From contig QKMY01000026.1 of assembly GCA_003242895.1 (NCBI GenBank), forward strand, positions 1-36,533: 36,533 nt of DNA, read 5' to 3'. The translations under genes were made by a program, and so were the position numbers. Positions within the stretch are counted from its first letter, which is position 1. Every line of letters starts with the position of its first letter. Source of the DNA: Candidatus Margulisiibacteriota bacterium. GTDB taxonomy: Bacteria; Margulisbacteria; Riflemargulisbacteria; GWF2-39-127. The notes under the pieces were generated by a model. The model was not told the origin of the DNA. It ran no database searches and was given only the letters and a program-made list of their open reading frames with translations. Of this stretch, positions 13,872 to 36,533 are shown piece by piece.

Positions 13872-13897
13872 GGGGCGTGCCACCGGCGCGCCCGTAC
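13872..13897 (+). repeat. REP-like hairpin, GGGCGTGCC type
   Basis: GGGCGTGCC pairs with GGCGCGCCC (9-bp stem with one wobble, 3-base loop ACC) and is flanked by GTAC. The same element occurs at 14101 (inverted), 14350, 15580 and 36028. It starts 9 bases after the EF-hand stop. Confidence 0.85.
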
Positions 13898-13912: not shown

Positions 13913-13940
13913 GTAGGGGCGAAGGGCCCTTCGCCCCTAC
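13913..13940. repeat. REP-like perfect 28-bp palindrome
   Basis: GTAGGGGCGAAGGG is followed directly by its exact reverse complement. It shares the GTAGGGGCG...CGCCCCTAC ends with the neighbouring elements and is read through by the RAYT remnant. Confidence 0.9.
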
Positions 13941-14100
13941 GGAATCACAATTTATTTGCACGATCACATGAAGATGATTCGGCATAACAACAAAATCATG
14001 GATTATTATTTCGTTACGAATTACTTCCGATCTCTTCCATTCCAGTTCTACAATTACCCCCATATCCGACAAATTCATCTAGCGGATATTCGGGATTGCT

Positions 14101-14125
14101 GTACGGGCGCGCCGCTGGCACGCCC
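14101..14125 (-). repeat. REP-like hairpin inserted in RAYT remnant
   Basis: Inverted copy of the GGGCGTGCC type with AGC instead of ACC in the loop. It interrupts the RAYT frame at residues 45-53. Confidence 0.85.
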
Positions 14126-14292
14126 TTTATTTCTCCCAACAAATGACGTTTTTCATGGATACATATCGTGACATAATAGTATCCTGCCTGGCCGTAATCA
14201 TAATTCCGTAAGCGGATTGATCGCCGATGGTGAATTGCGGGATTATAGGTTGTGTTCATATCGTTATCCTGGTTTCATTTTATTATTCGTTG

Positions 14293-14349: not shown

Positions 14350-14375
14350 GGGGCGTGCCACCGGCGCGCCCGTAC
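14350..14375 (+). repeat. REP-like hairpin, GGGCGTGCC type
   Basis: Identical to the element at 13872-13897 over 26 bases, including the terminal GTAC. Confidence 0.85.
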
Positions 14376-14475: not shown

Positions 14476-14499
14476 GTAGGGGCGAACGGCCGTTCGCCC
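14476..14499. repeat. REP-like palindrome, GGGCGAACGG type
   Basis: GGGCGAACGG is followed by its exact reverse complement (14480-14499), preceded by GTAG at 14476. The ends match the other elements but the centre differs. Confidence 0.85.
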
Positions 14500-15555: not shown

Positions 15556-15579
15556 GGGAAATACTCCTTCTATGGTGCT

Positions 15580-15604
15580 GGGGCGTGCCAGCGGCGCGCC
15601 GTAC
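15580..15604 (+). repeat. REP-like hairpin between giant gene and porV-like gene
   Basis: GGGGCGTGCC, then AGC, then GGCGCGCC and GTAC: the GGGCGTGCC type with one C lost. It occupies most of the 74-bp gap between two co-directional genes, so it may act as a processing or attenuation hairpin in a shared transcript. Confidence 0.8.
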
Positions 15605-15629
15605 TTGAATACCCAGATCATTGTTTTAG

Positions 15630-18600
15630 TTATCTTAGCTTAATCATTTTGCCTTGCGCATTCGTTGCCCTGCCATTGATTTTTGCTTCGATCTTGTAGA
15701 TATACACTCCGTTGACAACTTCTTCTCCGAGATCATTTTCGCCGTTCCAGGCGGCGTCATTATATTCTTTGGCGGGAGAGGTCCCGTCGGTATCGCCGTC
15801 AAGAACTGTTACCAGTCGTCCGGCAATGGTAAATATATAGATCTTCACCCGATCAGCGTCTTGCGACAGCTTGTACCGGATAGTCGTTCGATGCTCAAAA
15901 GGGTTAGGATAGTTAATGCTCTGTTCGATCTCCGGAACGGCTAGTACCTGGAACACCTTCGAGTTCTTCGACCTGACATACCCTGCGTTATCCGAAGCAG
16001 TATCCATGTTCGCTTCGATCTGCCAGCGCCAGCGGCTCCCTTCCCTGCTCTCCGGCAAACTATCCTGCCAGCCTAAGGTATAATAATATAAAGAGGCTTC
16101 GTTCTTATAATCCCCTGTTCTGATATCGATCACATAATTAGCGCAGGCAGTCTCAAACGGTTCTTGAGAAAGCATATTCCCGGATTCTTCTATAATTGCC
16201 AGTTTGTAGGTTGAATCTACCGGAGTGAAGGCAGGCATTTGCCAGACAAAAGTCGGTTTCGTTGTTTTGACTATGCCTCCATTGTATAGTTCTTTATCTT
16301 TGAGAATTGAGGCAACTAATGAATCCAGGTCACCCGAGGCAGGGGGAGCTATAACGAATGGCCGAGAGTCGGCTGTTGGTACGCTTATTGTTAAAACAGG
16401 TTGTTTGACGGAGGAGTATCCTACCCCAGCTTGGGCCAGAGGGCGGAACTTGTTAGGGATCAGTTTGAGCTTGATACTATAATCGTTGGCAATATTTTTA
16501 TGTATATATGCTACATATACTCCTTTATAGGATGGAATCTCCACAATAACAGGATTGACCGTACAATAATTGTTTATTGTATTTAACACGATGCTATTCG
16601 ACCAATTGACGCCATCATTTGATCGTTTATACAAGATATTGCCTACACTATTGATACTCACTGAATGCCTATAATTGAAATGATCAGTTATATTCAGGTA
16701 ATCTCCGTTTGTTTTTATTCCAGAAGTCAATAAAGTCGAATTCTGAAGGCCTGGGATTAATAGCGTATTTCTCATTATTTTCTTTGCATATGCAGTTGTT
16801 GTCAGTGACCCGCTACTGCTACTCTTTCCTCGTATGCACGATGTTTTAATGGTATATACATTACGGGGCAGAGTAAGCGTAGTATTGTAAAAATTCCAAT
16901 CTAACAGGAAGTTTGTGCCATTATTATCAGTAATTTCTACATAACTATAGGCGATATCCGAATTAGAACTGTTGAAGTAAATCCGCTGGGTAGAATTAAG
17001 CGTAAACGACACTGTATCATAATCCCAATCACGATTTGTATCAAAGCTATAAACAGCGGCTATTAACGAAGGGAAATCAGCACCATATTCCGATTCAAAT
17101 ACAATATTGTCCGTAACACATCCGACAGATAAATGATCGAGTATATTGCCCGTAACATAAACATCCAGAACGTTATTCACGCTTATAGCGCTTATATTTT
17201 CGGTGGTATTCCCTGCGGCGTCGGTATCGACAATCCTGATGGTATACGTGCCATCATCGACATAATCTCCATTATCGTCCGTTCCATTCCAGGTAACGGC
17301 AATGTTCTGGTTACTAATGATAGCATTATTATAAAAGCTCTTAATTATATTATTGTTCACATCCAGGATCGAAAGCGTCACGTAATTGATACTATTGGCA
17401 TCATTAACATTAAAGGTTGCAGAGTAGAGATGATTATCGTAGAGAAAATTGTTGTAGACTGACGGCACATCTACCATGGTTATTGCCGGTTTGGTTGTAT
17501 CGAGAATAATAGTATCGCTTATCGACAAATAATTACCTGCATTGTCATAAATCCGTGAAAAAACTGTTTTAGTGCCGTCACCGCTACTCAAAATCCACTC
17601 TTTTGCAGAATCGTAGGTAAATGCTGAATAATTGCTTGCGTTTTCATTTTTTAATTCCATATTAGCCGATATTCCGGAGGCATCCATATTAGCAGCATTC
17701 AAGATGACATTAGCCGTTTTTGTATAAGGTTGTCCGTTATTAACCGCGAGGGTCCCGGCAGGTGAAGTCTTATCGTAGGTAATTGAGGCGCTGGTAACCG
17801 TCGAATTCCCTGCGTCATCGACGACTTTTACAAATACTGTCCTTAAGCCGTCTTGTCCCGAAGCTAGAGAACAAGCGCTGATTGCCGTGCCGGATGACTG
17901 AGTGGGATTAAGCGCTGTTTCTGTCCAATTGATATTGTCTTTTGATAAAAAGTACCTGGCCACGCCGGAATGCGTATCTGCGTAATTAAAGGCTGTAGAT
18001 ACATTCAAGGTATTGGTGTACTGACCAGCATTGCTATTGACGGACAGGTCCGTTACAGAAGGGGACGTCGCATCCCACTTGAAGGGGCCGAACGATGCGG
18101 GTGAACCTTTGTTGCCTGACACATTTCTTCCAACTATATGCAAGTAATATCCGGCTGCGCTTGTAAGATCGGTAAAGGTCAATTGACCTGAAGTCCAGGC
18201 GTTGTTAATCGCGTCTACCGGAACTGACGGACCCTCAGTTAAAAGATAATAATAGTCGTTTGAATTATCTATTCCAAAAATAGCAGAGAAAACCAAAGCT
18301 CCTCCGTTTGGGGGACCATACCACGTATTTGTTGCCGGGCATGTCACTCTTGGGTCACATGGCAAGGTGTATTGGCTCAATACCGGACTGGCAGCAGTTG
18401 TCTTTCCGTCGCTATTAATATATTGTATTTGATATCCGTATTGGCAATTCGAACGAAGCCCGGTATCAGTATAGCTTGAAGTATAAGGAACAGAAGACGA
18501 GCCATCACCTCCATTGCCGCCTCCCGGATAAATGATATTATATCTGATCAAGCTTTTGTTCTCGACGTTACTATCTTTTAAAGCCGGTTTAATCGTTATT

Positions 18601-21600
18601 GAAGTTGCGGTTTTCGTTTCGATAATAAGTTCATCTGCTGCCGGATCATGGATCAGGGTAGAACAACCCATCGAGAACCAGGGACTTCGGTTCCCGACGT
18701 CATCGACTGATCTTGCCCGCAAAGTATGGAGAGAGTTCTCCTTCAAATCGGCTGGGCTGTACTGATAAGTTGCGTTATATGGCCCAATGATCGGCCCATC
18801 ATCGAGTTCATATTCATAGTTGAGGGTGGCCGGGTCATTTGGTCTATTGTCATTGATTGCAACTGCATTAAAAACCATAGAGGTTGTGTTAATTGTACAG
18901 GATAAGTCAGTCGGTATGTTCGGAGAAACCGTGTCAACTTTAAATGATTTGCCATACCAGTCACCTATATTTCCCGCTTGGTCAACAGCCCTCACGTAGA
19001 AATAATTAATATGCTGTGTGCCATTACTCACGGTAAAAGAATAGCTGTCATTAGTTATGATATTGATTTCTTGCGGATTGATTTCCTGACTATTACCGGT
19101 ATTAATAACCGCTGTTTCGTAATGGTCGAAAGGACTAAATCCGTCGTTATCAACGCTGTACCGGACGGTGCAGTTTCTATTGCTGCTCCAGGTATCCGCA
19201 TGTGTCGGGGAAGTAATACCCGGAATAACAGGTTTTTGCGTATCGATATTACAAAAATAGCTTGCTTGCGCGCTGATATTACCAGCATTATCGACAGCGT
19301 TGACATAAACTGTCCATATGCCATTATCCAGTCCCTTACTAACCGTATCGGAATTCGTATATGCCATACCCGAAGCGGTGTCTTTTTGGAAACGATAATA
19401 ATATCCTGAGATGCCTGAAGTATCTGTTCCATTGAATTTCACGGTCACTGAGGTATTATTCGACCAGCTTACCTGGCTAGGATGAGTAGAGGAAGTAATC
19501 GACACATCAGGAGCTGTTTTATCGTATATGATACTCTGAGAAGTCGCTGGCGAAGATACATTTCCGGCTTTATCAACGGCTTTGAGGCTCATTGTCTGAA
19601 AACCTTCGGTCGACAGATTGACGGTAAAATTAGTGGTTGTCCCATTGTAGAGAACAGATTGCCAACTGCCGCCGTTTAAAGAATAGAGCAGATATCCGAT
19701 ACCGTTCATGTCAGTTGCGCCGGCGGCTATGCTCACATAATTCTGAGTAACGTATTTATTCCAATTGTTAATACTGAAGGTCGGAGTACCGTCGCATACC
19801 GTATCGACAACAATCCGGATAACATTCCCGGAAGCTATGTTGCCAGCTTTGTCCTGAGCGAATGCATTGATATCCCATTGCCCAAGCAAACCAAGATTAC
19901 CTGTCGCGCAGCTAAAAGGAATATCCTGCACTGACTGGGAAAGTGCCCCGGAAGAAAGTGTCACGGTACTATTGGCGGTTGTCGCGATAATCCAATAGTT
20001 CTTGAGATTAGTGTCGGAGCACGAAGCGTAGAACTGGATATTGCTACTCACCAGATAAAAGGGAGTAGTATTATTAACGAGCTTAATATAATTGAACGGA
20101 CCTTCTTTAAGCTGCACATCCGGCAACGTATTATCGACACAAATATCCTTATGTGACGATATTGTATTCTCCGCCTTGTCCGTAGCGCTAACCCTTATGT
20201 GATACCAGCCATCAGCAACATAACTCCGGTCATCCCGGCCGTCCCAGTTCACATTTATTGTATTACCGTTACTGCAACTGCCATCGAATATTCTTCTAAC
20301 CGGGCTATTGGTTGAAGTAAGAATGTCGACATTCACGGAGAGAGATGCTGACCACGTACTAACATCGGATGAACTGAACGATACTGTGGTACGGTCTTGA
20401 ACAGAAACACTAAGTGACGGAGAGATATAATCAGTATTGAGCGAGAGATTATAAATCCCCGGCATCGAGGTATCAACAATAAACGGCAGGTTCAAAGCGA
20501 ATTGTGATTTCTTATCAAAATAGTCTTTTCCTTCGACACAGAAAGCATAGGTCCCGTCCGTACCTCTTCCCTCACCGTTCCAGGTAACAGTCACAGCCCC
20601 AACAACAGTCGGATGCCAATCATGGAGCACCGCTACTATTTCTGACCGGTCATTCTCGACAAACTCCCTGACCAGCTTAATACGCATATTAGATGTACCG
20701 GGAACAGATAGCAGATCGATTTGACCGAACTTCAATGGTTTCACCGGATACAAGGTATTCTCATCGAATTTATAAACAAAGGTAATCAATTTCTGAACCA
20801 GCGGAGAAAAAGGATTATGGCTGATAGATTGCGAAGACACACTGACAGCTCCGGAATCTGGAATGTTAAAGGAACTCTCGACCTGCTCTATTTTGATCAG
20901 CTTCTCCGAGACTGTCCTTGCGTTATTACCGGCGAAATCGGCAGAATCAAGGACCAGCTTGTAATAGGCCTTTTCGTTACGGGTAATACCTTGATCGTCG
21001 GTACCATCCCAGACGAAATCGATACAACCGTTCAGGTCGGGACCTTTGTCAAAGACTTCGTCCCGGGCAATTGTTCTGATCAAGCGATCATTTTCATCAA
21101 AAACGGCGAGCGATCTGATGTAGGCAGATTCGGATATTTCGATAAAAATCCTGAGCGTATCATCCAATCCATCTCCATCAGGAGAGAAACAGTTGTTACC
21201 TGGCCGATCAGGATTATTAAAGGAAATTATTTCGGGCGGTGTTGTATCGATCTTAAGCTTATCAGGAACCCCATCCATCAGCGTATGGGTAAGCATTCCA
21301 TTACCAGCGGAATCAACGATCCCCGCGATTGTGATCGGGGTATCTTTTTCGCCATAATCTTCATCTATTCTGGCACGGGCCATTATTGTGTTTGGGTTAA
21401 CGGTGACGATATCACATGGGATATCATTATATATTTTAAAAAATGGAAGGAGAGAACAATCAATATCCTCCGAAAAGACCGCTTTCACCCAGAGATATCC
21501 CGAACGAACGAGATATTCGTTAATATCCAGCGGACTTACCTTAAGGTCCGAGGTATCAACGCCATTCGGGTCACTGCTGTACCAGACAGAATACGTTGTC

Positions 21601-24600
21601 AGTTCAGGGCGCAGCGTATCAATCAACAAGTGATTAAGAGAAATCGCCGAACCATTACCGCTAAAATCATTTGCGCTGCCGATACTCACTGAACATATTC
21701 CATCCATTCGTTCTTCAGGGATATCGAATGTGTACTCCAATTGTCCGCCATTATGCGCAACTGACTGACATCGAAGAACGGTGTTTACTGAAACGATGCT
21801 GATATCAGGGATATCAACTAAGGGCTCAGAATAAAGAGCTGTTATCTTTAGCTCGCCGGATTTAATTGGCGAACAAGGAGTATAGGTTAGTGAGAGTAAT
21901 TCCGGAGTAACTGTATCGATGATAATATTACACGAAACTGCGGACATGGAATTAACGGCAAAGTCTTTTCCATTCCTGATGACAAGGATGTTATTGCCTT
22001 CGAGGCCCCCTTCCTGGTTTATGGTTTGAGGAGTAAGGCTTGCGGGAATTATGAACCGACTGATAACTTTTTTACCGGACTTGCGAACTTCTATTGGTAG
22101 TAGTTCAAGGTTAGGTTTGACGATCCTGATATCCGGCAAAGCATTCAATTCTTCTGAAAAATTGATGGTAATAATGAGTTCTCCGGCTTTGACGGGGGTC
22201 TCGTCGCTATACTCGATCCCGACTATCTCAGGCGCTGCCGGATCATAGATAATGCTAACCGGATTGCTTGTCGCGCTCTCGTTCCCGGCGTTGTCGATTG
22301 ATGCAACACATATCGTGTTCTCGCCTTCGGTCAGATTGACAGTGATATGAAAATCATTTTCACAAAGAAGATATTGGGCCTCTTGCGAACCAGGAGAACT
22401 TAAGACCGAGCATCTGACAGTGCTGCCGGCTTCTGCTACTGCGCTGACCTGAACGACGTTTATGCTGGTAAAAGCATCGATAGCGCACAAGACCGGTTTC
22501 ATGGGTTTCACCGTGTCTACAATGATATTACTCACCAAACTGTTCATCTTATTCCCGAGAATATCTGCCACTTGCAGAATTACCTGGTACCGTCCGTCAG
22601 GCACGATGTTTCCATTATTTCCCCGGCCATTCCATAAAAATTCGTCATTCTTTTCATACGTCCTGGTCAGCGAATATACTACTTGGCGGGCTTCGTTCAC
22701 GATGCTGTAGTTCGCACTTACTCTATGCGACAGTCTGTCGCCCGCTGTTATTCCCGATGAAAGATCAACGGTCACAGCCATAGCATACAAGTCTTGTATT
22801 CCGTCACCATTGGGAGAAAACGCGATATTTTCTTCGCGAGTACTCACGGTCGGTATGGTGGAGGCTATTGTCATACTTTTGGTGATAAGCTGCTGCTCTC
22901 CGGTTATCAGATCAATGACTGACAGCTGTAAGGTATATTCCCCGTCAGCAACACCAGCTCCATTCCAAATAAAATTAAAACTCTGCGGTATGAGATTATC
23001 AGTGACTTGCTCTCCCCGGCAAAGCGAAACAATCCCGGAAAATTGATTTTCCGGACCTACTTTATTAACCAACTCAAGGGTTTGCCGATAATGTCCTGAC
23101 CCGGCAGTTATACTCCACGAAACCGAAACTTCGTCCAGCAGTCCGTCGCCGTTCGGAGTGAAATCATGACACGCAAGCCCGGCCTCCATTTTTTCATAAA
23201 TATTAAAAGTCGTAAGCTCCCCGGACCTATTTCCAGCTTGGTCTATTATCTGGAACTTAAAGGTATAAACTCCTGCCGGCAGCATGGCCCCATTAAATTT
23301 TCCATCAAATTGAAAGGATTTTTCTCCGTTAATCTCCTGACCACTTTGAATCGTGTTCAGGGTAACGACACCGAGAAGCAGCGTGACCAGTTCATTTACC
23401 GGCTCGCTTAGATTGTAGCTGACCGTCATTATCTCGCCCATATAAGGACGGATAAAAGTACGATGCCCCGCTATCATTATTCCAGGAGCTACCGGATCAT
23501 AGATAATAATTACCGGATTACTTGTCGCACTCTTGTTTCCGGCGTTGTCGACCGATACAATACTTACCGTGTTCACGCCTTCGGTCAGATTGACGGTAAT
23601 CTGAAAGCTATCGGCTCCCTCATCCCGGCCTTCTCCCGTAGGGCAAAAGATAACTGGAGAGACGTATTCCTTAGAACTATTAAAGCCAAGGACTGAACAC
23701 CTGACGGCAGTTCCGGTCTCTGCCTGTCCTGATATCTTCATTTTGTTCTTATTAGAATAATTATTCATACTGCTGATAAGAGGGGTTATCGGGCGCTCAG
23801 TATCCAAAATTACAGTGCGTTCGAGATCTATGACCGTTGTCCCCAGAATGTCCGTGCCAATTAAATTGATTGTATATTTACCGTCAGCGGCCTTCTTCCC
23901 CTCCGACGTTTCTCCGTTCCAAATAAAGCTATTGTTTTTTTCGAACTTGTAATAATTCTCATATACTGTTTGACCGGAACTATTGATGACGGTCAGATCA
24001 GCACTGACACTTACGGACAACCGTGAACTCTCTTCTATTCCGGCTGATAAGTTGACGTATATATCGAGTTGATATGCATCTTTCACGCCGTCGAGGTCAG
24101 GAGAAAATTCACTATTTTCTTCACTGAAACTTATTGTCGGCACTACTGACGCAACTGAAATGCTCCTGGTAACAACCTGTTGTTCCCCGGTTATGGTATC
24201 GGTAACTTGCACCATAAGCGTATACTCGCCATCATCGACGTGCGCACCATCCCAGATAAAGTGTGAAATTAGCGGCGTGCAGTTGTCATGGAGAAACACT
24301 CCTTGCCAGGGTGACGCAAATCTCCCGAATTCTTGATCTGTCTTTCCGGCTTTATTGAATAATTCCAGGGTTTGCCGATAGGTTCCTGAACCGCCCCGGA
24401 TAGACCACTGAATATTCATCGTGTCCAGCAGTCCGTCACCGTTGGGGGTAAAATCATGACAGCTAAGATCAGCTTCCAGTTTTTCATAGATTGAAAACGT
24501 GACCATTTTTTCTATCCGGTTCCCTGCCTGGTCAACATAACAAAAATTCAATCCATAGAGACCTATAGGCAATTCGTCTCCGTAACCGGACATGCCGTCA

Positions 24601-27600: not shown

Positions 27601-30600
27601 GACTTTCGCTCAGAAATGCCGTCGCCTCTTAACACGAACTCAACTTCCGATTCTTCTGCCAGCGAAAACCGCAGATCAACGCCATTGCTGATTGAGCTGT
27701 ATTCGCGTGACGGTGAGATTCTGCTGATGAGTACATTACCTTTTTTTACATCAAGGGCCCTCGCGAGGGTTGCAGACGTGTTGCCCGCCCTGTCCATGAA
27801 CTTAAAGGTATAATTGTAGGTGCCGTTATCGGCGGTAGTCGTTTCTTTCATCCCGTTCCAAGAGAGTATCTTATTCCCGGAAACAAAGGTTTCGACTAAC
27901 TTTTTTAGTAATGAATTATCTTTATTATAAATATAGAGATATCCTGTCCCCGGCTCAGAAACGCTGATGTTCCAGATAATAGAATCCTTATCTCCGTCAA
28001 AATCCGGAGAAAACACTTCGTTTTCCACTTGAAAAGAATTGATAGACGGGGCAGAATTATCGATCTCAAAAGGGATATCCATCGAAACGGAATTCCCATT
28101 ACCATCTGTACAGTTAAGGATATAAGAATAAGTTCCATCAATGCCGGTTGTCGGAGAGTGTTCGATAACAATCCGCTTTGCCGACGTTACGCTCATCTTA
28201 GTGACGAGCTGTTCTTCCCTACCTTGAAGAGTAACAGCTACATCAATCGTAGGAGAAAAATTATCTTTTATGGAAACGGTCAAATTGTTGCTTTTATAAT
28301 TACGAGAAAAAAAAGAATGCTCAAGTAAGGGCTCAATAATCTGCGGTGACTCATTATCGACATAGAAACTGACATTTTCGTTCGTGGTGACGCCATATTC
28401 GTCTTCTGCGGCCATCTCAAAGTAAAAAAGTCCCGAAATATTCTTACCACCCATCATACCTTTGAGTTCGTTCAAGGAAACGGAGTAATTCCTAACGTTT
28501 TGAGCCCCTTCACCCTGACGATTATGTTGAACTCCCGGCTTAAGGTTACTGGTAGCGATCAGACCTTTCACGCTATCGTACAGATTGATTCCGACTGCAG
28601 AAATCGTGACACCTTCGGGTGACTTCACGCCAAACGTCAGCGCAAAATCCTGTATGCCCGATACAAACGACAGGCTTTCTCCCGTAAGATGTACGTTCAC
28701 GATCTGCGGCTTGTTATTTTTGATGGTTAAGCTGGTTGTCGTGAGCGATTCATTCCCGGCTTCGTCTTGTATCCTGACAATGACTAAGTAGCTGCCGTTC
28801 TCCATTGTCTGACCATTATCATCGAATCCCCGGAAAACTATCTCGTCACTTCCCGACACAACTTTTTCCTGAGAAAAAAGAACGTTCGAACTCGCCGTCG
28901 CCTGTCTTCGAAGGGAATACCATACATGTACCAACGACGAAAAATTATCAGCGGGGGCTATAAAAATCGAAACAGGTCCTTTCGCGAAATTGAACTCCCG
29001 GTCCGATAGGTTAATAGTTGGAATCCGAGGAGGAGTATTGTCCACAATAAATGAGTGGGTGACGATTGCCATGTTCCCTGCAAGGTCCCGGATTTCAGCG
29101 GTAATTGTATGTCCGCCTTCTGTCAGTCCTTTGAGCATATCAAAAACCTGGGCTGAACTATCTCCAAGTCCCAGTGCTACAGTCTTCTTGTTTCCCTCTA
29201 CGAAAAACCTACTATTGAAGGTAGTGCTAACCGCATCCCAAAGATTCCCGCTCCATTCAAAAAAGTTATTTGTCCGTTTCGATGAAATAATCCCGGTATT
29301 TAATTGAGCCCCTTTTATCTCCGGTGCGTGGTTATCAAGCATAAACGGCAATAGTCTTTCAGCCCGATTACCAGCTTTATCCTGAATGGAAATCCGAGCG
29401 TAATAGTTACCGTCTTTCCAGTCGTTCCCAACAAATCGGGAAGTTATGAAAAACTGAACCTCCCCCCTGCCTTCGTAATATCTTAATCCTTCAACGAAAT
29501 GTCCATTCTCATCAAGAATATTCACTGATATTGAGAGGTCGGCCGGGGATAAATTGTCACTGACTATGAATGATATCGCATTTTCTTTGTTGAGCTTGCT
29601 GCTATACCTGCCAGAGGTCAGATTAGGGCTGGAGATAACCGGAGCAGTGCTATCAACGAGTATTGTCCTGGTAACGATGAGCTCGTTGTCAGCCACGTCC
29701 CTAACCTTCAGGAATATTTCGTATTCCCCGTCAGGGATATTCGAGGTTGGAGCCCAAGTTATAGAAGTCTTTCCCTGAGGCACGCAGAACATGGTATTTA
29801 ATATGTTAATCATCTTTGCAATATTCGCTGCGCCCTTACCTGACGATCCCCTGATTAAAGAACCGACATAAACATCACATTGCTTAATAGGTTTGTTAAC
29901 ATTATCAGTCAGGTCAAAGGAGATAGTATTACGTGGATTACGGGCTACCGACCAGGGACTGAAGTCAAAGTCCAGATTGCTGATTTGGGGCGGGGCCCGG
30001 TCAAGGATAAGCGGAAGGACCTTATTCTCGCCGACGTTACCGGCTTTGTCGATAGCGAAGATGGTTATGGTACAAAGACCGTCAGGGAGAGCTTCAGCAG
30101 GGACCTGATTTATCACGCTCTTACCGGATTGTGCTGACTCCTTGTAATGCAACTGATTCTCGCCCAGCCATGAAAGAGCTAACATCTGGTACTGTGCCAA
30201 CTCTTTGACGTCATCGATAATGACCTTGCCAGAGGCGTCCATAAGCTTGACGAACAGTTTCACATTCTCGTCGTATCTGATATAAGCCTTAAAATCAGTA
30301 CTAGTTGCCGGATTAAAGACCGGCGAGTCATACGAAAATACCGAGAACGAGGGCGGTATGGTATCGACGGTTATTTTTTTTGTAGTTACAGGACGGTTGA
30401 TGATTTCGGTATTCCTGGTGGCATAGGTGATGAAAAGGTAGTTATCCCCCTCGCTCATAAGATGCACATTTTTCAGTTCAAAATTCTTTTTAATATAAGC
30501 TTCATTGATGTTATTAATGATTACTTTATCCGTTTTCGGATCGACTTTGGTCTGATACGGTGCATAGGTGATGATTTGATAATCTTTGTCTTTTTGAAGT

Positions 30601-33600
30601 AACTTCGCTGTATTCGGACTGAACCTTTCCCGGTCACCCATATACAGTTCCAGATCATAGTATCCGGTGAATTTCAGGATATCGTCTTCTATTTCTTTCT
30701 TAAAATCCTGAACCCCGAACAATGCGATATTGGTTGTATTTACCAGGTCGTTGCTTGTAAAAGCCTGGACCTTGTCCGGAATAGCACCCTGTAACATGCC
30801 GTAAGTAGAAAAATGGTCCAGTTCGGCGGATATCTTTAACCTGGTAGTCTCTTTATCCTTTAGCTTACTGGCGGCAACTCCGAACAGTGCGGAAGAATTG
30901 TTTATTCTGGTAGATTTGAGGTTGGCAGCGGTCGAGGAATCTTCAAGCTGTATCTGGCTTTTGGCAATAAACACCTCCCCGGAAGGATTGATGTAGTAGA
31001 TATTCAATTGCCCGACATCAACATGGTCCTGATCGATCATCTTCGCGGCTTCGGCCAGGGTATAATTATATTCGAGAGTTACCTTGTTATTACCATTGAA
31101 TGAGGCAATCGCCGGTTTGATCTCAACCAGCGGCCCGATCGGATGGATATCAAGGTTCCCGCTGATCTTCACCTCGTCAAAACCCAAGGGGGTCACGGTA
31201 ATAAGTGTATTCTTCGTAACCGCTTGCGGAGGAAAGTACAAATGCACCCGCTTGTATGGCGAGTATACATGTCCACCGGCAGAATCGATAGGGGTCCCGA
31301 CAGAAAACGGTACCGTATTTGATCCGCTAACGGTCCTGTCCTCATTATAGGTCCTGATCACTAATTTATAATCGCCATTGAGCCTGGCTGCATCGATATA
31401 ACCTAGACAGTGTTCTCTGTAATCAAACAGATTATCCTTAGTATCGACAGAGAATACATCCGCCACAGTTGTATCGTTAAAATAGTGGAGGGTGTATGGA
31501 GCACCAACTTTTCCCTGAATCGGGATCCAGCATTGCTCTTTGGCGTGTTCCTTAAGCTTGACCTGTAAAGACATATTGTAGTCTAAGCTCTCCGGCGGCA
31601 CAGGGTCGAGATAGTTATGAGGCTTTCCTCGCAGGTCGTACACGTGCGCACTATAGCTTTTAATATTTATAAAAGGATTCTTCTGAATAGTGCTATCGCC
31701 TTGATATCCGGAAAAGGGACTGCCTTTCCAGAAAAGGTCATTCAACCGGCTATTGACGTTACCGGTAATCTGCGGGGCGTAGACAGCTTTAAAAATATCC
31801 AGGGTATTAATACCTGAAGAAGAAAAGGCAACCGGGTTGAACGGAATTATCCCACTATCAATCAAGCCGTTTATATCCCGATACGAATGCGCAATACACG
31901 ACATGTCCATCGACGGGCTCCAGGGTATATGCCATGAGTCCATATTGTCGATTACAGACTTGATAGCGCTGCGATTATCATTCGTTTCGCCTGTACCATT
32001 AGAAAACTTGTAGCTGATAAGGTCGTTCGGATCATTGTCTGTCAGCTTGCAGGTGATACTATCCGTCACAAATCGCCATTCATATCCCTTATTCCGTCTA
32101 TCGCTGAACAGAGAAGTCCAGACATTATCAGCTATCTGGCAGCTATTATTGTTATCTTTATAATATATCGTGCCGGTAAAGTTTTTGGAAATGCTTTGGT
32201 CAGTCGCCCGTGAATCAGGAACAATATAAAAATGCATATTTCCGACGTTATTATCTAAACTAGTGATCCCGGTTTTCTTATGACTATTCGCAAAAGTATT
32301 ATCGACCAGCGTATCTACCCTGATGTTTTCCGCATCAATGTCTGACTTACTGGCAGGCCAGAGAAACGTATAGGCACTCACTTGATTCCGGGGATCGTAC
32401 TCGGTATTGGTTGATACCGAAAACCATAAGGAGTTAGCGGTATTGAGAGGATTAATCAAGGTATTTTCGTCATACGAGCGAAATATATTCCCATTTTTCT
32501 CATAGAGCTTTTTCTCTCCCGGCAACAAAATCGGGATCATATGGAATTCTTCGTCGGATAGATAACTATAATAGTCTGTGACCACTGATGAACCCCATGA
32601 ACCTTTAATCGCATCAATCGCATCGGCTACTTCCTGCGCATTATGGAAAGTACCGGCAGAAGTTGCAGCACCTTTCATAGTTCCGTCATCTACAGGATAG
32701 GCAATACTCAACGCATCGATATTATGTGATGCTTGTATATTAGGACCGGAAAAGAAGTCATTCCCCGGGAACCCCAGGAATGCCGGTTGATTAAACAGAG
32801 ACTTGAAATCGCGATCAAGCCGTCTCCCTTTCCGGACATACCCATACCAGGGAGCGAAGCGGTTCGTCAGCCGGGAGTATTCTATCGGCTGCTCCAACGT
32901 GATCATGAAAATCGTGTGTATATTCTGGTCCTCTTCGATATAAAGCACCAGGCCTTTGAATATCCCTTTATCACTTGTCTTGAGCTTATAATTGTTATAC
33001 TTCCGGATCTCACTCAGTAAGGTACCGCTTATAGCTGCATCCTTTCTTCTTTCGTATTCATTGCGAGCGGCAGACTGTCTTGCCACTTCGGCAGGATCAG
33101 GATTCTCATGATCAATAGGTGTAGGGTTCGCGGACGTCTGCTCCTGATATATTTCTTCGTAGCTTTGAAACGGATAGCTGATACGAATGGGTTCAATATC
33201 TATCGTATCTAAAGCAAATGAATTATGCTTGTCGCGGAACTCCAAGTGCACATTATCATAACCTACCCATCTCGGATCGTTGGTATAACGACCAAATTCC
33301 GTCGTGGCCCTAAATACGTTGAGAGGGCTATAATATGCCTGTTTATCACGCGTGAAATTCTGTGTATAGTTCTGGTCTTTAATAAAATCTTTATCATGCC
33401 ATTTTCCGTTCCAGACACCTTCCCAGCGCTTCCACCGTCCCTGATGGGTCCCCCGGGCGAAGATATTAACCTGGTTGAACCTTCGATGCGCAAGCAGCGC
33501 AAATGGCTCATACGGGTAGGCACGCACATATTGCCTGGCGGATATAAGTCCGAGATTATATGAATAGTTCAATGGTTCATAAAGATCACCTTCAATGTCC

Positions 33601-36533
33601 AGCTTCACGCTATACCAGGAATTAGGAGAAACAATATTCTGTTCGTTCACTGTTACCCCGTTGATTTTGGTGATTAGTGCGTTTCCTGCCACGGCAGTAT
33701 AGACAGTAAAAGGATTCGAGGTGACTATCCGGATGTTATTCACATTAAAATCCTCAGGCTCTCCAGCAACCTGTACTTCAAAATAATAGGTGCCGTTAGG
33801 GACCCGCTCAACACCGTGAGGAGTGCCAGAGTTGCCTCTCCAGATGACCTCATGTTCCCCGCTGTTCCAGGTGGTTGCGGTGCCCTCAATGATACAAACG
33901 ACCTCATGATTCTGCTTTTTCACGAATGATCGGATATAGGCTGTTTTGTTCAGCTTCACTCCGAACTGAGTATAATTGAGGCCACTTGAAGTCGGATCGA
34001 ACCCTGACGGTTGTTTGGTTACACTTTTCGATAAGGGAGTCGTCAGGTAGATAGGTTTGTTCATGGTAACTATATGCCGGTCATTCCCTTCAGCTCTCGC
34101 TTCAACAGTATAATCGCCGTTAGGTATATATTCGCCCGTAGGCAACCTGCCATTGAATACAATTTGCTGAACATTGCTATTGCTTTGATCAATAGTTGTC
34201 ATCGGCATAGTGAGCGGTTTCTTGTTCTTGCCAATAAACAGATATGGAGTGAAACTCGTAAAATGGTCAAAGGAGCCATCTACTTCCGACAGGATAACCG
34301 TCGTTTTCTTTGGGTTCCCTGAAATAAAAATCGACTTTTCGTTCGAGGAAGTGTTCACTTCGAAGTTAATAAGAGGTTCGCTGATACCGGGCCCTTCATT
34401 CATTATCATGCCCTTGTAATTATGGCCTTGAGCCCCCTTACGGAATTCTACATGAACACCGTCTTCATTCTTCCAGATAAAAATCCCCGAATCTTTATCC
34501 TCAAATGACGGGGTACCATAGTAATCGTTATTCACTATGTTAGAGTAAAGCCTATGGAATACTACCTGTCCGGACTGGTTATAGATATCGACATTAACGT
34601 TCGCAGGCTGGTTTATTATAAAAAATGAACAGGTCAAAGATGTTTCGTCAGTTATATTACAGTTCCCAGGTACATCCAGATCGATCGACGGGTAATCGGA
34701 AACCGATAACGCAGGTTCCGGGACTACGTTGATTACCTGGACATCCACCGTGCAGTTGCCATTGGTCTCTTCCACGACTACTGCGATCTGGTAGGCCTTA
34801 GGCGGTAGCAGAGAGGTATTAATGTACCCCAGCACTCCATAATTGCTGACCGGTCTGCCGGAAACATTCTCGGCTCCCAATCTATTCTCACGGGGCACCA
34901 TAACGACATTTCCACTCGTCTCTTTATCCCGCCAGCCACCGCCGAGTTGCGAGGAACGGAAGTCATTAACTGATACCTCGCAAAATGGTAAAGGTCGATA
35001 AAAAATTGAATATTTGGCGAAATCTGCGTTATTAGTCCAGTCAGGGTCCAGGGCACGGCCTTTGATCGCAGTGACTCCGCTCACTCCTGCCGGATGGGCT
35101 GATGTCCCCGTAGGATAAACTATCTCCGGCTTAATGCCGCCTTTCACAAACTCAGAGTATCCTCGCCCGCTGTTCCCGGCCACATCAGTCGCAGTTATAA
35201 CGTAGCGGTACGTGCCGTACGCATTTAATGGCGGGGTATACCTATAATTATTATCACTATTCACCGAGGTTACAGCTCCGGATTGCAAGTCCTCAACGTA
35301 GACCTCGACAACAACAGCCTGTGCATCTTCATAATTATCTCTGGTGATATTGAACGTAACTGTTGTGCTTGTACCATCTCTGAGCACATAAGGATTGGCA
35401 ACTGCATTAATGACAATGGGAGGACTCGTGTCATAGATAAAAGGACATGTTCCTAAAGCAGTGACGCTCTCATTCCCGGCCTGGTCTGCCAGGTGGATGG
35501 TTATATTATACGTTCCTGTTTCCAGCCCCATCGATTGCAAAGATTGACTGCCTGTGAATATATATCCGTCATTATTACGTGTGACGGCTAGAGGAAAGGT
35601 ATAGGTCTTCCCGTTCTTATTGCTGAGCAGGGTATAGCCTGCAGCCGGTTCATTACAGCGACCGGACAGCTCGATATTCGGATTCGACCGATTAGCGATC
35701 ATTGGAGAGACACCACATCCCGTAACTGAGGGCGGCGTGCTATCGATATTCACGGTAATTATGGTCTGGGCAACATTCCCGGCATGGTCTTGCGCTCTGA
35801 TACAGAAATAATAAGTCCCGTTCGGGGATACTGCGGAGTAATCCTCTAGTGTATCAAAAAGCTTGATGGTCTGCTCTACCCTGCCGAGCAGTTCCAGGTT
35901 GTTGGTTGGATAGGACAGAATCGCTTGCACGTCATCAGGATTTTTCTTTAGCGAAAAGGTAACGTTTTTGACGATTTCTGAGATGTTATCGGAGACGGTA
36001 TAGGTAATTCCGCTGGGTTGCGGTTCAGGGGCGTGCCACCGGCGCGCCCGTACATCTGATATCCACAATTCTTGTTTGTTGGTCTTGATTACCGGTGGGG
36101 TTGTGTCTACCCAGAATGGCCAGATGGCTTGCATGGTGTGACCGTAGGCGTCGTGGACTCGCGCGGTGACTTCGTGTCTGCCTTCGGATAGTCCACTGCC
36201 GTGCGTGCTTAGTGTAAACCCGTTAACCAGGTTGCTGGTTGTACCGTAGTCGTACGCAACTTGCAGCGGGGTGAAAGTGGGCGAACCGCCGTTCGCTTCG
36301 AAGCCGTCTACTATAAAATTGTCGACGAAATTGATGGTTGTCGGGTTGCTCTCGAATTGTATATTTTTGAATTGCACTGAGATCATTGGGCTGCAATTGC
36401 TTGTTGCCATATTCTCGACCGGGGTCATATTCTGGGGTAGCATGGGCGTACTGCTCTTGATGATGCGGAGAAACTGATTATTACTCATTCCCACCTTGTT
36501 CGCCAGCTTAAAGGTCAGAATGTTTTGCCCTTC
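15630..36533 (-). CDS. Giant Ig-like repeat surface protein, 5' end beyond window
   Basis: At least 6,967 codons without a stop. The frame is open to the right edge, where EGQNILTFKLANKVGMS continues an Ig-like strand, so the GTG at 36494 is internal and the signal peptide lies outside. Numbering from 36494: Ig-like modules joined by DTTPP-type linkers, about thirty in all (1-930 and 2000-6600); a non-Ig island (930-1735); a ZU5-like module (about 1740-1900, GGHVYSP... to HFSTYGML); ten FSPNGDG-type modules between about 2800 and 5150; fibronectin-like modules around 5850-6100; and a C-terminal FlgD-like/T9SS type A-like domain (YPNPFEHRTTIRYKL, WNGENDLGEEVVNGVYIYKI). The expected product is an exported cell-surface or adhesive fibre protein. 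The porV-like gene follows. Comparable giant genes are known in Omnitrophota and other candidate phyla. No catalytic domain is recognised. Confidence 0.92.
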   Translation of the reverse strand, partial: EGQNILTFKLANKVGMSNNQFLRIIKSSTPMLPQNMTPVENMATSNCSPMISVQFKNIQFESNPTTINFVDNFIVDGFEANGGSPTFTPLQVAYDYGTTSNLVNGFTLSTHGSGLSEGRHEVTARVHDAYGHTMQAIWPFWVDTTPPVIKTNKQELWISDVRARRWHAPEPQPSGITYTVSDNISEIVKNVTFSLKKNPDDVQAILSYPTNNLELLGRVEQTIKLFDTLEDYSAVSPNGTYYFCIRAQDHAGNVAQTIITVNIDSTPPSVTGCGVSPMIANRSNPNIELSGRCNEPAAGYTLLSNKNGKTYTFPLAVTRNNDGYIFTGSQSLQSMGLETGTYNITIHLADQAGNESVTALGTCPFIYDTSPPIVINAVANPYVLRDGTSTTVTFNITRDNYEDAQAVVVEVYVEDLQSGAVTSVNSDNNYRYTPPLNAYGTYRYVITATDVAGNSGRGYSEFVKGGIKPEIVYPTGTSAHPAGVSGVTAIKGRALDPDWTNNADFAKYSIFYRPLPFCEVSVNDFRSSQLGGGWRDKETSGNVVMVPRENRLGAENVSGRPVSNYGVLGYINTSLLPPKAYQIAVVVEETNGNCTVDVQVINVVPEPALSVSDYPSIDLDVPGNCNITDETSLTCSFFIINQPANVNVDIYNQSGQVVFHRLYSNIVNNDYYGTPSFEDKDSGIFIWKNEDGVHVEFRKGAQGHNYKGMIMNEGPGISEPLINFEVNTSSNEKSIFISGNPKKTTVILSEVDGSFDHFTSFTPYLFIGKNKKPLTMPMTTIDQSNSNVQQIVFNGRLPTGEYIPNGDYTVEARAEGNDRHIVTMNKPIYLTTPLSKSVTKQPSGFDPTSSGLNYTQFGVKLNKTAYIRSFVKKQNHEVVCIIEGTATTWNSGEHEVIWRGNSGTPHGVERVPNGTYYFEVQVAGEPEDFNVNNIRIVTSNPFTVYTAVAGNALITKINGVTVNEQNIVSPNSWYSVKLDIEGDLYEPLNYSYNLGLISARQYVRAYPYEPFALLAHRRFNQVNIFARGTHQGRWKRWEGVWNGKWHDKDFIKDQNYTQNFTRDKQAYYSPLNVFRATTEFGRYTNDPRWVGYDNVHLEFRDKHNSFALDTIDIEPIRISYPFQSYEEIYQEQTSANPTPIDHENPDPAEVARQSAARNEYERRKDAAISGTLLSEIRKYNNYKLKTSDKGIFKGLVLYIEEDQNIHTIFMITLEQPIEYSRLTNRFAPWYGYVRKGRRLDRDFKSLFNQPAFLGFPGNDFFSGPNIQASHNIDALSIAYPVDDGTMKGAATSAGTFHNAQEVADAIDAIKGSWGSSVVTDYYSYLSDEEFHMIPILLPGEKKLYEKNGNIFRSYDENTLINPLNTANSLWFSVSTNTEYDPRNQVSAYTFLWPASKSDIDAENIRVDTLVDNTFANSHKKTGITSLDNNVGNMHFYIVPDSRATDQSISKNFTGTIYYKDNNNSCQIADNVWTSLFSDRRNKGYEWRFVTDSITCKLTDNDPNDLISYKFSNGTGETNDNRSAIKSVIDNMDSWHIPWSPSMDMSCIAHSYRDINGLIDSGIIPFNPVAFSSSGINTLDIFKAVYAPQITGNVNSRLNDLFWKGSPFSGYQGDSTIQKNPFINIKSYSAHVYDLRGKPHNYLDPVPPESLDYNMSLQVKLKEHAKEQCWIPIQGKVGAPYTLHYFNDTTVADVFSVDTKDNLFDYREHCLGYIDAARLNGDYKLVIRTYNEDRTVSGSNTVPFSVGTPIDSAGGHVYSPYKRVHLYFPPQAVTKNTLITVTPLGFDEVKISGNLDIHPIGPLVEIKPAIASFNGNNKVTLEYNYTLAEAAKMIDQDHVDVGQLNIYYINPSGEVFIAKSQIQLEDSSTAANLKSTRINNSSALFGVAASKLKDKETTRLKISAELDHFSTYGMLQGAIPDKVQAFTSNDLVNTTNIALFGVQDFKKEIEDDILKFTGYYDLELYMGDRERFSPNTAKLLQKDKDYQIITYAPYQTKVDPKTDKVIINNINEAYIKKNFELKNVHLMSEGDNYLFITYATRNTEIINRPVTTKKITVDTIPPSFSVFSYDSPVFNPATSTDFKAYIRYDENVKLFVKLMDASGKVIIDDVKELAQYQMLALSWLGENQLHYKESAQSGKSVINQVPAEALPDGLCTITIFAIDKAGNVGENKVLPLILDRAPPQISNLDFDFSPWSVARNPRNTISFDLTDNVNKPIKQCDVYVGSLIRGSSGKGAANIAKMINILNTMFCVPQGKTSITWAPTSNIPDGEYEIFLKVRDVADNELIVTRTILVDSTAPVISSPNLTSGRYSSKLNKENAISFIVSDNLSPADLSISVNILDENGHFVEGLRYYEGRGEVQFFITSRFVGNDWKDGNYYARISIQDKAGNRAERLLPFMLDNHAPEIKGAQLNTGIISSKRTNNFFEWSGNLWDAVSTTFNSRFFVEGNKKTVALGLGDSSAQVFDMLKGLTEGGHTITAEIRDLAGNMAIVTHSFIVDNTPPRIPTINLSDREFNFAKGPVSIFIAPADNFSSLVHVWYSLRRQATASSNVLFSQEKVVSGSDEIVFRGFDDNGQTMENGSYLVIVRIQDEAGNESLTTTSLTIKNNKPQIVNVHLTGESLSFVSGIQDFALTFGVKSPEGVTISAVGINLYDSVKGLIATSNLKPGVQHNRQGEGAQNVRNYSVSLNELKGMMGGKNISGLFYFEMAAEDEYGVTTNENVSFYVDNESPQIIEPLLEHSFFSRNYKSNNLTVSIKDNFSPTIDVAVTLQGREEQLVTKMSVTSAKRIVIEHSPTTGIDGTYSYILNCTDGNGNSVSMDIPFEIDNSAPSINSFQVENEVFSPDFDGDKDSIIWNISVSEPGTGYLYIYNKDNSLLKKLVETFVSGNKILSWNGMKETTTADNGTYNYTFKFMDRAGNTSATLARALDVKKGNVLISRISPSREYSSISNGVDLRFSLAEESEVEFVLRGDGISERKSGFVKFTAGANQCRLPDKLLTGLNDGTYILVLIARNQQGKLSQEYSSILKLDVTSPKLSNISCKNTAFRPQTGEEFSVDFYLSEESQLTVKLEDSSLKVLDTIFDAKQVGKQHVTFSGYISKTLLAPGRYVFAITAVDRAGNTVTERVSFECLAPVSPIEIKEVIAHSFSPNDDNVRDVSEIKVSYTGGSDTTKASIWIERDGKEFVRFVDAKGLDGRKYYSSWYGADSSGNKAKDGAYTLVVRLNDPVSEEDIRKEVQFVLVSELPTINCNELVEYFSPNGDSYQDTFNIDVRMDGSSSIRECRDLSTVLRIKCVIADYAGNEIRTYEENMPPGNTRFTWDGTNVQGYAVPDGMYVARITACDSLGSISTVLNRDFFLDTTPPKIVAENNVFIQPCKGDTLTVSYNTNELTEGVITLLSAGEPSGNGQVISNASGNWQECCELVPAHTITGNRIFLFDGKKDGVTTLPSGLYALKFQVIDQAGNRSGKLTTFNIYEKMEAGLLCRDFTPNGDGLLDEVSVSWSITAGSGHYRQTLTLINKEGEAESAFAQFAIPYQVEVSDTISITAYALWNGSGTADGEYSLQLSVIDTITGEQQLITKSMTIASTIPTVSTREENIAFSPNGDGIRDFYTLDVSAVLSAGISESSRLSKKVSANYRVENNSGQVVYEQSEFYENNDRFTWNGRGNDSILACDGQYRVVVEATDTLGNKMNNLVRNIIVDTVKPVVPVVSTIDACTSLNVVPVNGQAEPGNTVRCLVLGFNSSQEYVAPVLLRPMGEGRDEGNGIFQITLNLTEGVNTVSVVSIDSAGNVSATSNTESIIYDPVAPEITRIEYSDESPVKAGELIITVTYSEELNILPEIKIVNTRLELLPFEVRKSGKEVTSRFIIPATLAPQTINRLGALEGSNTVVIRNGKDYAQNIQNVCTGSITIDTTTPSIVVVDGYRSFIQTYKNQVLVVTYNVNEPVEETIILQGNSGGVWKNLSILSNKKEVQGTKTVAFDGMSGYGDELPIGLYGLNFCYVDQAGNRIEKMVTFSIYEKLEADLSCHDFTPNGDGLLDTMNIQWSIRGGSGTYRQTLELFNKAGKTDQEFGRFASPWQGVFLHDNCTPLISHFIWDGAHVDDGEYTLMVQVTDTITGEQQVVTRSISVASVVPTISFSEENSEFSPDLDGVKDAYQLDIYVNLSAGIEESSRLSVSVSADLTVINSSGQTVYENYYKFEKNNSFIWNGETSEGKKAADGKYTINLIGTDILGTTVIDLERTVILDTERPITPLISSMNNYSNKNKMKISGQAETGTAVRCSVLGFNSSKEYVSPVIFCPTGEGRDEGADSFQITVNLTEGVNTVSIVSVDNAGNKSATSNPVIIIYDPVAPGIMIAGHRTFIRPYMGEIMTVSYNLSEPVNELVTLLLGVVTLNTIQSGQEINGEKSFQFDGKFNGAMLPAGVYTFKFQIIDQAGNRSGELTTFNIYEKMEAGLACHDFTPNGDGLLDEVSVSWSITAGSGHYRQTLELVNKVGPENQFSGIVSLCRGEQVTDNLIPQSFNFIWNGAGVADGEYTLQLSVIDLITGEQQLITKSMTIASTIPTVSTREENIAFSPNGDGIQDLYAMAVTVDLSSGITAGDRLSHRVSANYSIVNEARQVVYSLTRTYEKNDEFLWNGRGNNGNIVPDGRYQVILQVADILGNKMNSLVSNIIVDTVKPMKPVLCAIDAFTSINVVQVSAVAEAGSTVRCSVLSSPGSQEAQYLLCENDFHITVNLTEGENTICVASIDNAGNESATSNPVSIIYDPAAPEIVGIEYSDETPVKAGELIITINFSEELNALPDIRIVKPNLELLPIEVRKSGKKVISRFIIPASLTPQTINQEGGLEGNNILVIRNGKDFAVNSMSAVSCNIIIDTVTPELLSLTYTPCSPIKSGELKITALYSEPLVDIPDISIVSVNTVLRCQSVAHNGGQLEYTFDIPEERMDGICSVSIGSANDFSGNGSAISLNHLLIDTLRPELTTYSVWYSSDPNGVDTSDLKVSPLDINEYLVRSGYLWVKAVFSEDIDCSLLPFFKIYNDIPCDIVTVNPNTIMARARIDEDYGEKDTPITIAGIVDSAGNGMLTHTLMDGVPDKLKIDTTPPEIISFNNPDRPGNNCFSPDGDGLDDTLRIFIEISESAYIRSLAVFDENDRLIRTIARDEVFDKGPDLNGCIDFVWDGTDDQGITRNEKAYYKLVLDSADFAGNNARTVSEKLIKIEQVESSFNIPDSGAVSVSSQSISHNPFSPLVQKLITFVYKFDENTLYPVKPLKFGQIDLLSVPGTSNMRIKLVREFVENDRSEIVAVLHDWHPTVVGAVTVTWNGEGRGTDGTYAFCVEGKDYFDKKSQFALNLPFIVDTSMPGIYNLSLNTDYISPSLSVSVQDRTTVSFSSSDVSTWSASLSVNVDILTSTNSPVRRIFDGSCSNGNTINVNWDGRDDRSYVADGWYHIRVSATDKAENTISSHKDICVDNTLPDVQLKEGPFNYIKLVNNTTPFYLVSSNIQFYASCSDTNLKNYWIIATTANSTVTLSSGALSQSVQDIPFSCATGNLGLLGQWDINAFAQDKAGNIASGNVIRIVVDTVCDGTPTFSINNWNKYVTQNYVSIAAGATDMNGIGYLLYSLNGGSWQSVLYNGTTTNFTVNLSTEGFQTMSLKAVDKAGNVSSPATSQSIIYDKTAPDVSITSSTHPSQVSWSNNTSVTVKFNGTDTSGISGYYYRFQKDTASGMAYTNSDTVSKGLDNGIWTVYVNAVDNAGNISAQASYFCNIDTQKPVIPGITSPTHADTWSSNRNCTVRYSVDNDGFSPFDHYETAVINTGNSQEINPQEINIITNDSYSFTVSNGTQHINYFYVRAVDQAGNIGDWYGKSFKVDTVSPNIPTDLSCTINTTSMVFNAVAINDNRPNDPATLNYEYELDDGPIIGPYNATYQYSPADLKENSLHTLRARSVDDVGNRSPWFSMGCSTLIHDPAADELIIETKTATSITIKPALKDSNVENKSLIRYNIIYPGGGNGGDGSSSVPYTSSYTDTGLRSNCQYGYQIQYINSDGKTTAASPVLSQYTLPCDPRVTCPATNTWYGPPNGGALVFSAIFGIDNSNDYYYLLTEGPSVPVDAINNAWTSGQLTFTDLTSAAGYYLHIVGRNVSGNKGSPASFGPFKWDATSPSVTDLSVNSNAGQYTNTLNVSTAFNYADTHSGVARYFLSKDNINWTETALNPTQSSGTAISACSLASGQDGLRTVFVKVVDDAGNSTVTSASITYDKTSPAGTLAVNNGQPYTKTANVILNAANMDASGISANMELKNENASNYSAFTYDSAKEWILSSGDGTKTVFSRIYDNAGNYLSISDTIILDTTKPAITMVDVPSVYNNFLYDNHLYSATFNVNDANSINYVTLSILDVNNNIIKSFYNNAIISNQNIAVTWNGTDDNGDYVDDGTYTIRIVDTDAAGNTTENISAISVNNVLDVYVTGNILDHLSVGCVTDNIVFESEYGADFPSLIAAVYSFDTNRDWDYDTVSFTLNSTQRIYFNSSNSDIAYSYVEITDNNGTNFLLDWNFYNTTLTLPRNVYTIKTSCIRGKSSSSGSLTTTAYAKKIMRNTLLIPGLQNSTLLTSGIKTNGDYLNITDHFNYRHSVSINSVGNILYKRSNDGVNWSNSIVLNTINNYCTVNPVIVEIPSYKGVYVAYIHKNIANDYSIKLKLIPNKFRPLAQAGVGYSSVKQPVLTISVPTADSRPFVIAPPASGDLDSLVASILKDKELYNGGIVKTTKPTFVWQMPAFTPVDSTYKLAIIEESGNMLSQEPFETACANYVIDIRTGDYKNEASLYYYTLGWQDSLPESREGSRWRWQIEANMDTASDNAGYVRSKNSKVFQVLAVPEIEQSINYPNPFEHRTTIRYKLSQDADRVKIYIFTIAGRLVTVLDGDTDGTSPAKEYNDAAWNGENDLGEEVVNGVYIYKIEAKINGRATNAQGKMIKLR
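21900..26455 (-). repeat. Three tandem 1.3-1.7 kb coding repeats in the giant gene
   Basis: Units run about 26455-24790, 24790-23480 and 23480-21900. Each encodes, in order, an F(I)xPY..VTYN Ig-like module, FTPNGDGLLD, a GEQQ..T(K/R)S linker, FSPxxDG with RLSxxVSA and F(I/T)WNG, then a module with VRCxVLGFNSS or a variant and LTEGxNT. Units 1 and 3 also have a module starting IEYSDE(S/T)PVKAGEL that unit 2 lacks. Units 1 and 3 share 59 identical bases (25726-25784 and 22804-22862) and another exact 41-base run near 26020-26060 and 23090-23130, so duplication or gene conversion is recent. Confidence 0.88.
30800..31285 (-). other. ZU5-like module within the giant protein
   Basis: The encoded segment begins SAGGHVYSPYKRVHLYFPPQ, then AVTKNTLITVTPL, and ends AELDHFSTYGML. 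The GG..(V)..PPxAV..N TxITVTP start and the HFSTY end match ZU5-type beta modules common in large bacterial surface proteins. It separates the non-Ig island from the main Ig array. Confidence 0.55.
31290..33700 (-). other. Non-Ig island within the giant protein (about 800 residues)
   Basis: Roughly residues 930-1735 lack the DTTPP linkers and AGN/DG signatures that recur elsewhere. The stretch is rich in W, Y, F, N and basic residues (GRWKRWEGVWNGKWHDKD; RFAPWYGYVRKGRRLDRDF) with a short charged helical patch (PAEVARQSAARNEYERRKDA). I recognise no family. It could be a ligand-binding or enzymatic head carried by the Ig stalk. Confidence 0.6.
36028..36053 (+). repeat. REP-like hairpin in frame inside the giant gene
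   Basis: The sequence is identical over 26 bases to the intergenic elements at 13872 and 14350. It is read in frame as VRARRWHAPEP (residues 148-158) in the middle of an Ig-like module, between WISD and QPSGITYTVSDN, without breaking the reading frame. Confidence 0.9.

Follow-up and report, generated by a model that had tools for sequence, protein, structure and literature searches.

A 7,819-residue Margulisbacteria protein with a lipase-type head, an Ig-like stalk and a probable PorV-like partner

What kind of protein is encoded by a reading frame that runs without interruption to the very end of a contig? The window, a stretch of 36,533 nucleotides (contig C26) from a Margulisbacteria genome (82 contigs, 3.35 Mb, reported as 100% complete with 0.24% contamination), contains a minus-strand frame from 36533 to 15630 that has no internal stop over 6,967 residues and terminates at 15630-15632. 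In the same stretch, the other two minus-strand frames are interrupted by 376 and 626 stops; at the GC content of the window, a frame this long would stay open by chance with a probability of ~1e-182. The original prediction held that the gene extends beyond the window and that its missing N-terminus would reveal the signal for export, perhaps together with additional heads. This is what we find on contig C27 (3,238 bp) of the same genome, whose bases 1-100 are identical to the last 100 bases of the window and overlap with them in frame. The frame continues there for 852 further codons up to an ATG at L010:2656(-), so that the true start does not lie a few codons from 36533, the outcome that would have spoken against the prediction, and the GTG at 36494 lies inside the coding sequence. 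The encoded N-terminus (MKKILIILILILIMINVSFAT) is signal-peptide-like and precedes an alpha/beta-hydrolase head. After joining both contigs, the full protein measures 7,819 aa, with a computed mass of 862.6 kDa and pI of 4.9 (Table 1). The accompanying expectation that such giants cluster in poorly studied phyla agrees with the published survey that names Margulisbacteria as one of the bacterial phyla with the strongest enrichment in proteins of >5,000 aa, which are poorly characterised and have no COG assignments (PMC11573180).

The join between the two contigs is backed by homology in addition to the overlap, since five homologous proteins, encoded in other assemblies, give BLAST alignments that pass through residue 852 (for example, residues 780-1902 against residues 620-1659 of the Termititenax protein). 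That the gene is an assembly artefact or a decaying pseudogene, produced by the mis-joining of smaller genes or by a wrong C26-C27 join, might be suspected from its division between two contigs, the palindromic repeats inserted in it, and the in-frame TAA present in one homolog (G054). Nevertheless, one contig alone holds 20.9 kb of open frame, the 100-bp overlap is exact and in frame, homologs are collinear across the join, and independent assemblies yield versions of 3,187-10,107 aa, which makes this explanation extremely improbable; a frameshifted or pseudogene reading was rejected on the grounds of the continuous frame and the collinear homologs.

The repeats, located by a fuzzy pattern scan because a 15-mer count was too strict, belong to two short palindromic REP-like families that are dense beside the PorV-like gene and have three copies read in frame inside the giant gene, at residues ~829, ~931, and ~1014. 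The copy at residue 829 appears in the alignment as a clean insertion relative to five homologs, reminiscent of the in-frame palindromic elements known in Rickettsia. Pieces of REP-associated (Y1-type) transposase-like ORFs, recognised by eye, are found in the window at 8555-8887 and 14014-14259 (minus), with a longer ORF at L044:742-1287, and are possibly the mobiliser of these palindromes. The peptide GEGRDEG, which occurs twice in the stalk, matches neither family and was left as an internal duplication.

Table 1. Coordinates of the features of the giant gene, its surroundings and other loci (window positions unless a contig or locus is given).
Feature	Coordinates	Strand	Match
Giant gene, 3' 89% (codons 853-7819 plus stop)	15630..36533	(-)	
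Giant gene, 5' 852 codons	contig C27, L010:101-2656	(-)	
Conserved ~2,800-aa core, portion inside the window (aa 853-2818)	30636..36533	(-)	
ZU5-type domain and preceding beta-domain (aa 2478-2776)	30762..31658	(-)	Pfam, Foldseek
Candidate HF|S autocleavage site: HFS (aa 2759-2761) at the C-terminal end of the ZU5-type domain	30807..30815	(-)	
Variable-length Ig-like repeat stalk (~aa 2819-7715)	15945..30635	(-)	
C-terminal sorting domain, T9SS type-A-like	15630..15944	(-)	TIGR04183, PorU C-terminal region
PorV/PorQ-like outer-membrane barrel gene	14635..15621	(-)	NF033709
REP1 palindrome-type dispersed repeat inside the giant gene, in-frame RARRWHAPE (aa ~1014)	36028..36049	(+)	
REP2 palindromic repeat inside the giant gene, in-frame EANGGSP (aa ~931)	36279..36298	(+)	
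Further repeats grouped with 36028-36049	13872-13893, 14105-14126, 14350-14371, 15580-15601		
Further repeats grouped with 36279-36298	13917-13936, 14480-14499		
Further palindromic repeat	L010:152-171		
SprA-motif barrels	L032:15000-17999, L067:6547-9159, L077-L079		

The head, which spans residues ~30-700, contains the motifs MVHGVS at 37, THSYGN at 165 (Ser167), NGDGAV at 551 (Asp553), and LAHPAIR at 663 (His665), and the corresponding HG, HSxG, GD, and H columns are invariant in an alignment of nine homologous heads. Searched alone, it has no Pfam or NCBIfam match, and a head profile finds no match at E 0.01 among PDB sequences. Two homologs exceed the Pfam cut-off for Abhydrolase_6 (34.6 and 36.4 bits versus 26.3), and the fold matches of a homologous head modelled with AlphaFold (pLDDT 69.5, pTM 0.73) include Proteus mirabilis lipase (probability 0.93-0.94, E 2.5e-3 to 6e-3). 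The elbow, acid, and histidine found in this order, plus the fold, place the head among lipase-type alpha/beta-hydrolases.

In the conserved core, the head is followed by an Ig-like module of the EGQN kind, by several Ig domains of the Big_13/FlgD type, by a conserved but uncharacterised block (~aa 2040-2480, with the pattern YSRLTNR..W.GYVR) and, at the end, by a ZU5-type domain. The Pfam score of the latter, 19.6 bits, is just under the cut-off of 21, and a ZU5 profile run against PDB sequences retrieved only sub-threshold, chance-like matches. The structure model of the region is mediocre (pLDDT 66, pTM 0.57); its top seven Foldseek matches are all ankyrin ZU5 domains (probability 0.92-1.00, E 1.3e-3 to 9e-3). 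Ankyrin ZU5, which it resembles most in fold, is not known to be an autopeptidase. The tripeptide HFS occurs once per protein in six full-length members, always at the ZU5 end, and is kept in 20 of the 20 genomes with a full-length match to the ZU5-type domain; three distant paralogs do not have the HFS-bearing segment. The cleavage sequence of PIDD is HF/S and is located right after its ZU5 domain (PMC3210808), and processing at ZU5 has been proposed as a general feature of large surface proteins of bacteria that carry lipases and adhesion modules (PMC3482391), a proposal that the giant family seems to fit. We infer that the ZU5-type domain, placed at the core/stalk boundary, probably cleaves itself at HF|S. 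A purely structural or adhesive fibre, in which the hydrolase head would be a binding tip and the ZU5 domain with its HFS only a folding element, would be in line with the resemblance to ankyrin ZU5, with the divergence of the head between members (down to 24-30% identity, with large insertions), and with the fact that repeat-rich giant proteins are usually adhesins; it appears unlikely given that Ser, Asp, and His are invariant in nine of nine full heads while much of the head drifts, and that HFS is fixed in all 20 genomes.

The stalk is built of repeats of the Big_13, FlgD_ig, CHU_C, and Glucodextran_B families, and the whole protein contains 34 DxxGN motifs. From the number of residues and the typical dimensions of an Ig domain, the stalk is estimated to comprise ~45-50 Ig-like domains and to be ~200 nm long. 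A tandem-repeat finder detected none in the window DNA, from which it follows that the Ig repeats have diverged at the DNA level. An EF-hand calcium-binding protein is encoded at window positions 13239-13862 (+), convergent with the PorV/giant operon, and might relate to calcium-stabilised Ig repeats. The protein ends in a domain that scores 23.1 bits with TIGR04183, barely at the cut-off of 23, and 54 bits with the PorU C-terminal region; together with the Sec signal peptide, this C-terminal Ig-like sorting domain gives the protein, marginally, the make-up of a type-A T9SS substrate.

The barrel ORF begins 8 nt past the stop of the giant gene, and its signal-peptide Met is probably at 15555. 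We call it "PorV-like" only, since its NF033709 score (74 bits, E 1.5e-20) is below the NCBIfam cut-off of 90, exceeded by two paralogs in the source genome. On the other side, the stop of the upstream gene overlaps the giant-gene start codon as ATGA and, considering this overlap and the 8-nt spacing, the three genes look like one operon. Each of the six giants with an observed 3' end has a PorV-like gene after it. Moreover, a same-strand PorV-like gene is present within 1.5 kb of 10 of the 15 genes of the source genome that end in a C-terminal domain of this kind (CTD), downstream in nine of these cases, against an expectation of 0.9% for each (P ~1e-17). This genome encodes at least five other giant CTD frames on contigs C19, C58, and C12 (L068-L072; 5695, 3856, 3724, 3336, and 3144 aa), and each of the three on C19 has a PorV-like gene after it. 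Directly upstream of the giant lies, at ten loci, a gene for a small beta-propeller (PD40/TolB-like) lipoprotein, replaced at three further loci by a weakly LolA-like gene. Contig C56 (L044, G000:C56:1-648) begins inside a second propeller lipoprotein gene, 83% identical in DNA sequence to its truncated counterpart that precedes the giant gene (L010:3070-3238). This reflects either variation between strains or a paralogous cassette with a giant gene that the assembly lacks.

Which machinery could export these proteins? Among 74 genomes of the phylum, none has a SprA above the TIGR04189 cut-off, in a search run without a positive control, and none has a GldL match in a search whose controls gave no match either. 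Short matches to a SprA-like motif (GxxTQGPF..SE.V.VDG..Q.RG.DY.IDY) occur in 59 of the 74 genomes, in smaller outer-membrane-like barrels mostly of 700-1,800 aa, which on their sequences are candidates for a reduced translocon. Their identification as SprA was rejected, the barrel profile having no PDB match and the barrels no Pfam match to SprA. One such barrel is encoded shortly downstream of the giant-PorV cassette in G020. In the source genome, matches to PorU (NF033707) mostly concern the C-terminal domain and none passes the cut-off, including a C25-like PorU segment in the 3,856-aa giant at C19:23031.

The giant proteins define a previously unnamed family within the uncultured phylum Margulisbacteria; we found no description of this giant-stalk, PorV-linked family in the accessible literature. 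Its full-length members measure 10,107 (G020), 7,819 (the protein described here), 5,281 (G009), 3,410 (L060), 3,205 (G008), and 3,187 aa (Termititenax), with 23-34% identity in the core and C-terminus and with stalk length responsible for most of the size difference; a head-only form of 797 aa exists in G033. Relatives of the head were found with an alignment of distant relatives, its own sequence as query finding none, in WOR-1/Saganbacteria, Margulisiibacteriota, Candidatus Termititenax aidoneus, and one contig labelled Taylorbacteria. The latter (L056) carries a typical Saganbacteria-like propeller-giant cassette and is probably mis-binned. The named relatives point to Margulisbacteria as the host phylum. 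Across the phylum, the head profile matches 30 of 74 genomes, some of them weakly and possibly through other hydrolases, and the ZU5-region profile matches 28, of which 20 strongly. The homologous head gene with the in-frame TAA in G054 (L061:9806-12316) is shortened and looks decayed.

Considering the full-length gene, its domains, the conserved triad and HFS, and the pairing with PorV, the best reading is that of a giant adhesin tethered to the surface, tipped with a lipase and served by its own PorV shuttle, with an enzyme core possibly shed at HF|S; to this reading we assign a probability of about 0.6. The protein would be exported by Sec, and the PorV-family barrel encoded directly downstream would carry the T9SS type-A-like CTD across the outer membrane and anchor it there. 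The C-terminus would remain at the cell and the Ig-like stalk would hold the N-terminal core at a distance. The head, with its full Ser167-Asp553-His665 triad, is predicted to act as a hydrolase on ester lipids from a neighbour, a host, or a particle. Self-cleavage at HF|S by the ZU5-type domain would leave the enzyme core held non-covalently, so that it could be shed. Counted against this reading are the missing SprA/GldL matches, the sub-cut-off score of the PorV neighbour, the borderline CTD, and the sub-threshold ZU5. Alternatively, the distal enzyme head and the widely varying stalk size could suggest a ZU5-type polymorphic-toxin-like or predatory weapon, whose released lipase core would attack the membranes of competitors or prey with the stalk as delivery fibre, all the more as ZU5 autopeptidases have been described both from toxins and from large surface enzymes, lipases among them (PMC3482391). 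We consider this quite improbable, since no immunity-like gene was noticed adjoining the giant gene at the loci examined, the family has one conserved head instead of polymorphic tips, and there is no match to a toxin family.

With the tethered, lipase-tipped adhesin, an anonymous huge protein would become a family defined by its enzymatic head, a candidate site of self-cleavage, a stalk whose length can evolve, a sorting tag, and a barrel as partner. It opens to direct testing how the lineages that are siblings of Cyanobacteria bring very large proteins to their surface, as well as ZU5 HF|S autocleavage outside the cell in bacteria and the existence of cargo-dedicated PorV-type shuttles beyond the Bacteroidota scheme, in which a single PorV handles every type-A CTD. 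In Flavobacterium, adhesins with a type-B CTD have a cognate SprF shuttle whose gene lies directly downstream, whereas one PorV serves all type-A CTDs (PMC12618676, PMC9143113); as the canonical PorV has this general role, dedicated PorVs would be unusual. More speculatively, and with a rather low probability, Margulisbacteria might use a T9SS-resembling route without the canonical translocon and motor, with a PorV-type barrel for each giant type-A-like cargo, the cargo being a self-cleaving (ZU5, HF|S) lipase on a stalk that evolves from a few hundred to ~7,000 residues.

Giant exported repeat adhesins or enzymes with a dedicated outer-membrane barrel are already known, as are huge proteins in Margulisbacteria. 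A close parallel is SprB-SprF of Flavobacterium johnsoniae, in which the adhesin is likewise exported, repeat-rich and very large, ends in a sorting domain and has the gene for its dedicated outer-membrane barrel immediately downstream, and the giant/PorV-like pair is best read, by analogy, as functionally similar. However, SprB-SprF combines a type-B CTD with a PorP/SprF barrel, whereas the giant has a type-A-like CTD and a PorV-family barrel, bears an enzymatic head and a ZU5-type domain, and belongs to a non-Bacteroidota host, in whose phylum canonical SprA and GldL were not found with the models used (without a positive control). With Family I lipases (Proteus mirabilis lipase, PDB 4gw3/6jd9), the head shares the alpha/beta-hydrolase core, the nucleophile elbow, and the Ser-Asp-His order, but it has a long alpha-helical insertion between elbow and acid and is fused to an Ig-like domain and the stalk. 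The family, with its probable ZU5-type domain, also resembles the ZU5 surface proteins of Zhang et al. 2012 (PMC3482391), which are large and secreted, with adhesion modules, a lipase-type enzyme, and an N-terminal ZU5-type domain, although a CxH thiol motif was stressed in those proteins and the giants have HFS as in PIDD and Nup98. Finally, the protein, which exceeds 5,000 aa and comes from an uncultured phylum in which an enrichment of such giants had been noted, is comparable to the giant genes of Omnitrophota and other candidate phyla and to the huge Margulisbacteria proteins (PMC11573180, PMC10066038), and differs in that it belongs to a family of which the head, the candidate cleavage motif, the stalk, the sorting domain, and the partner gene are resolved.
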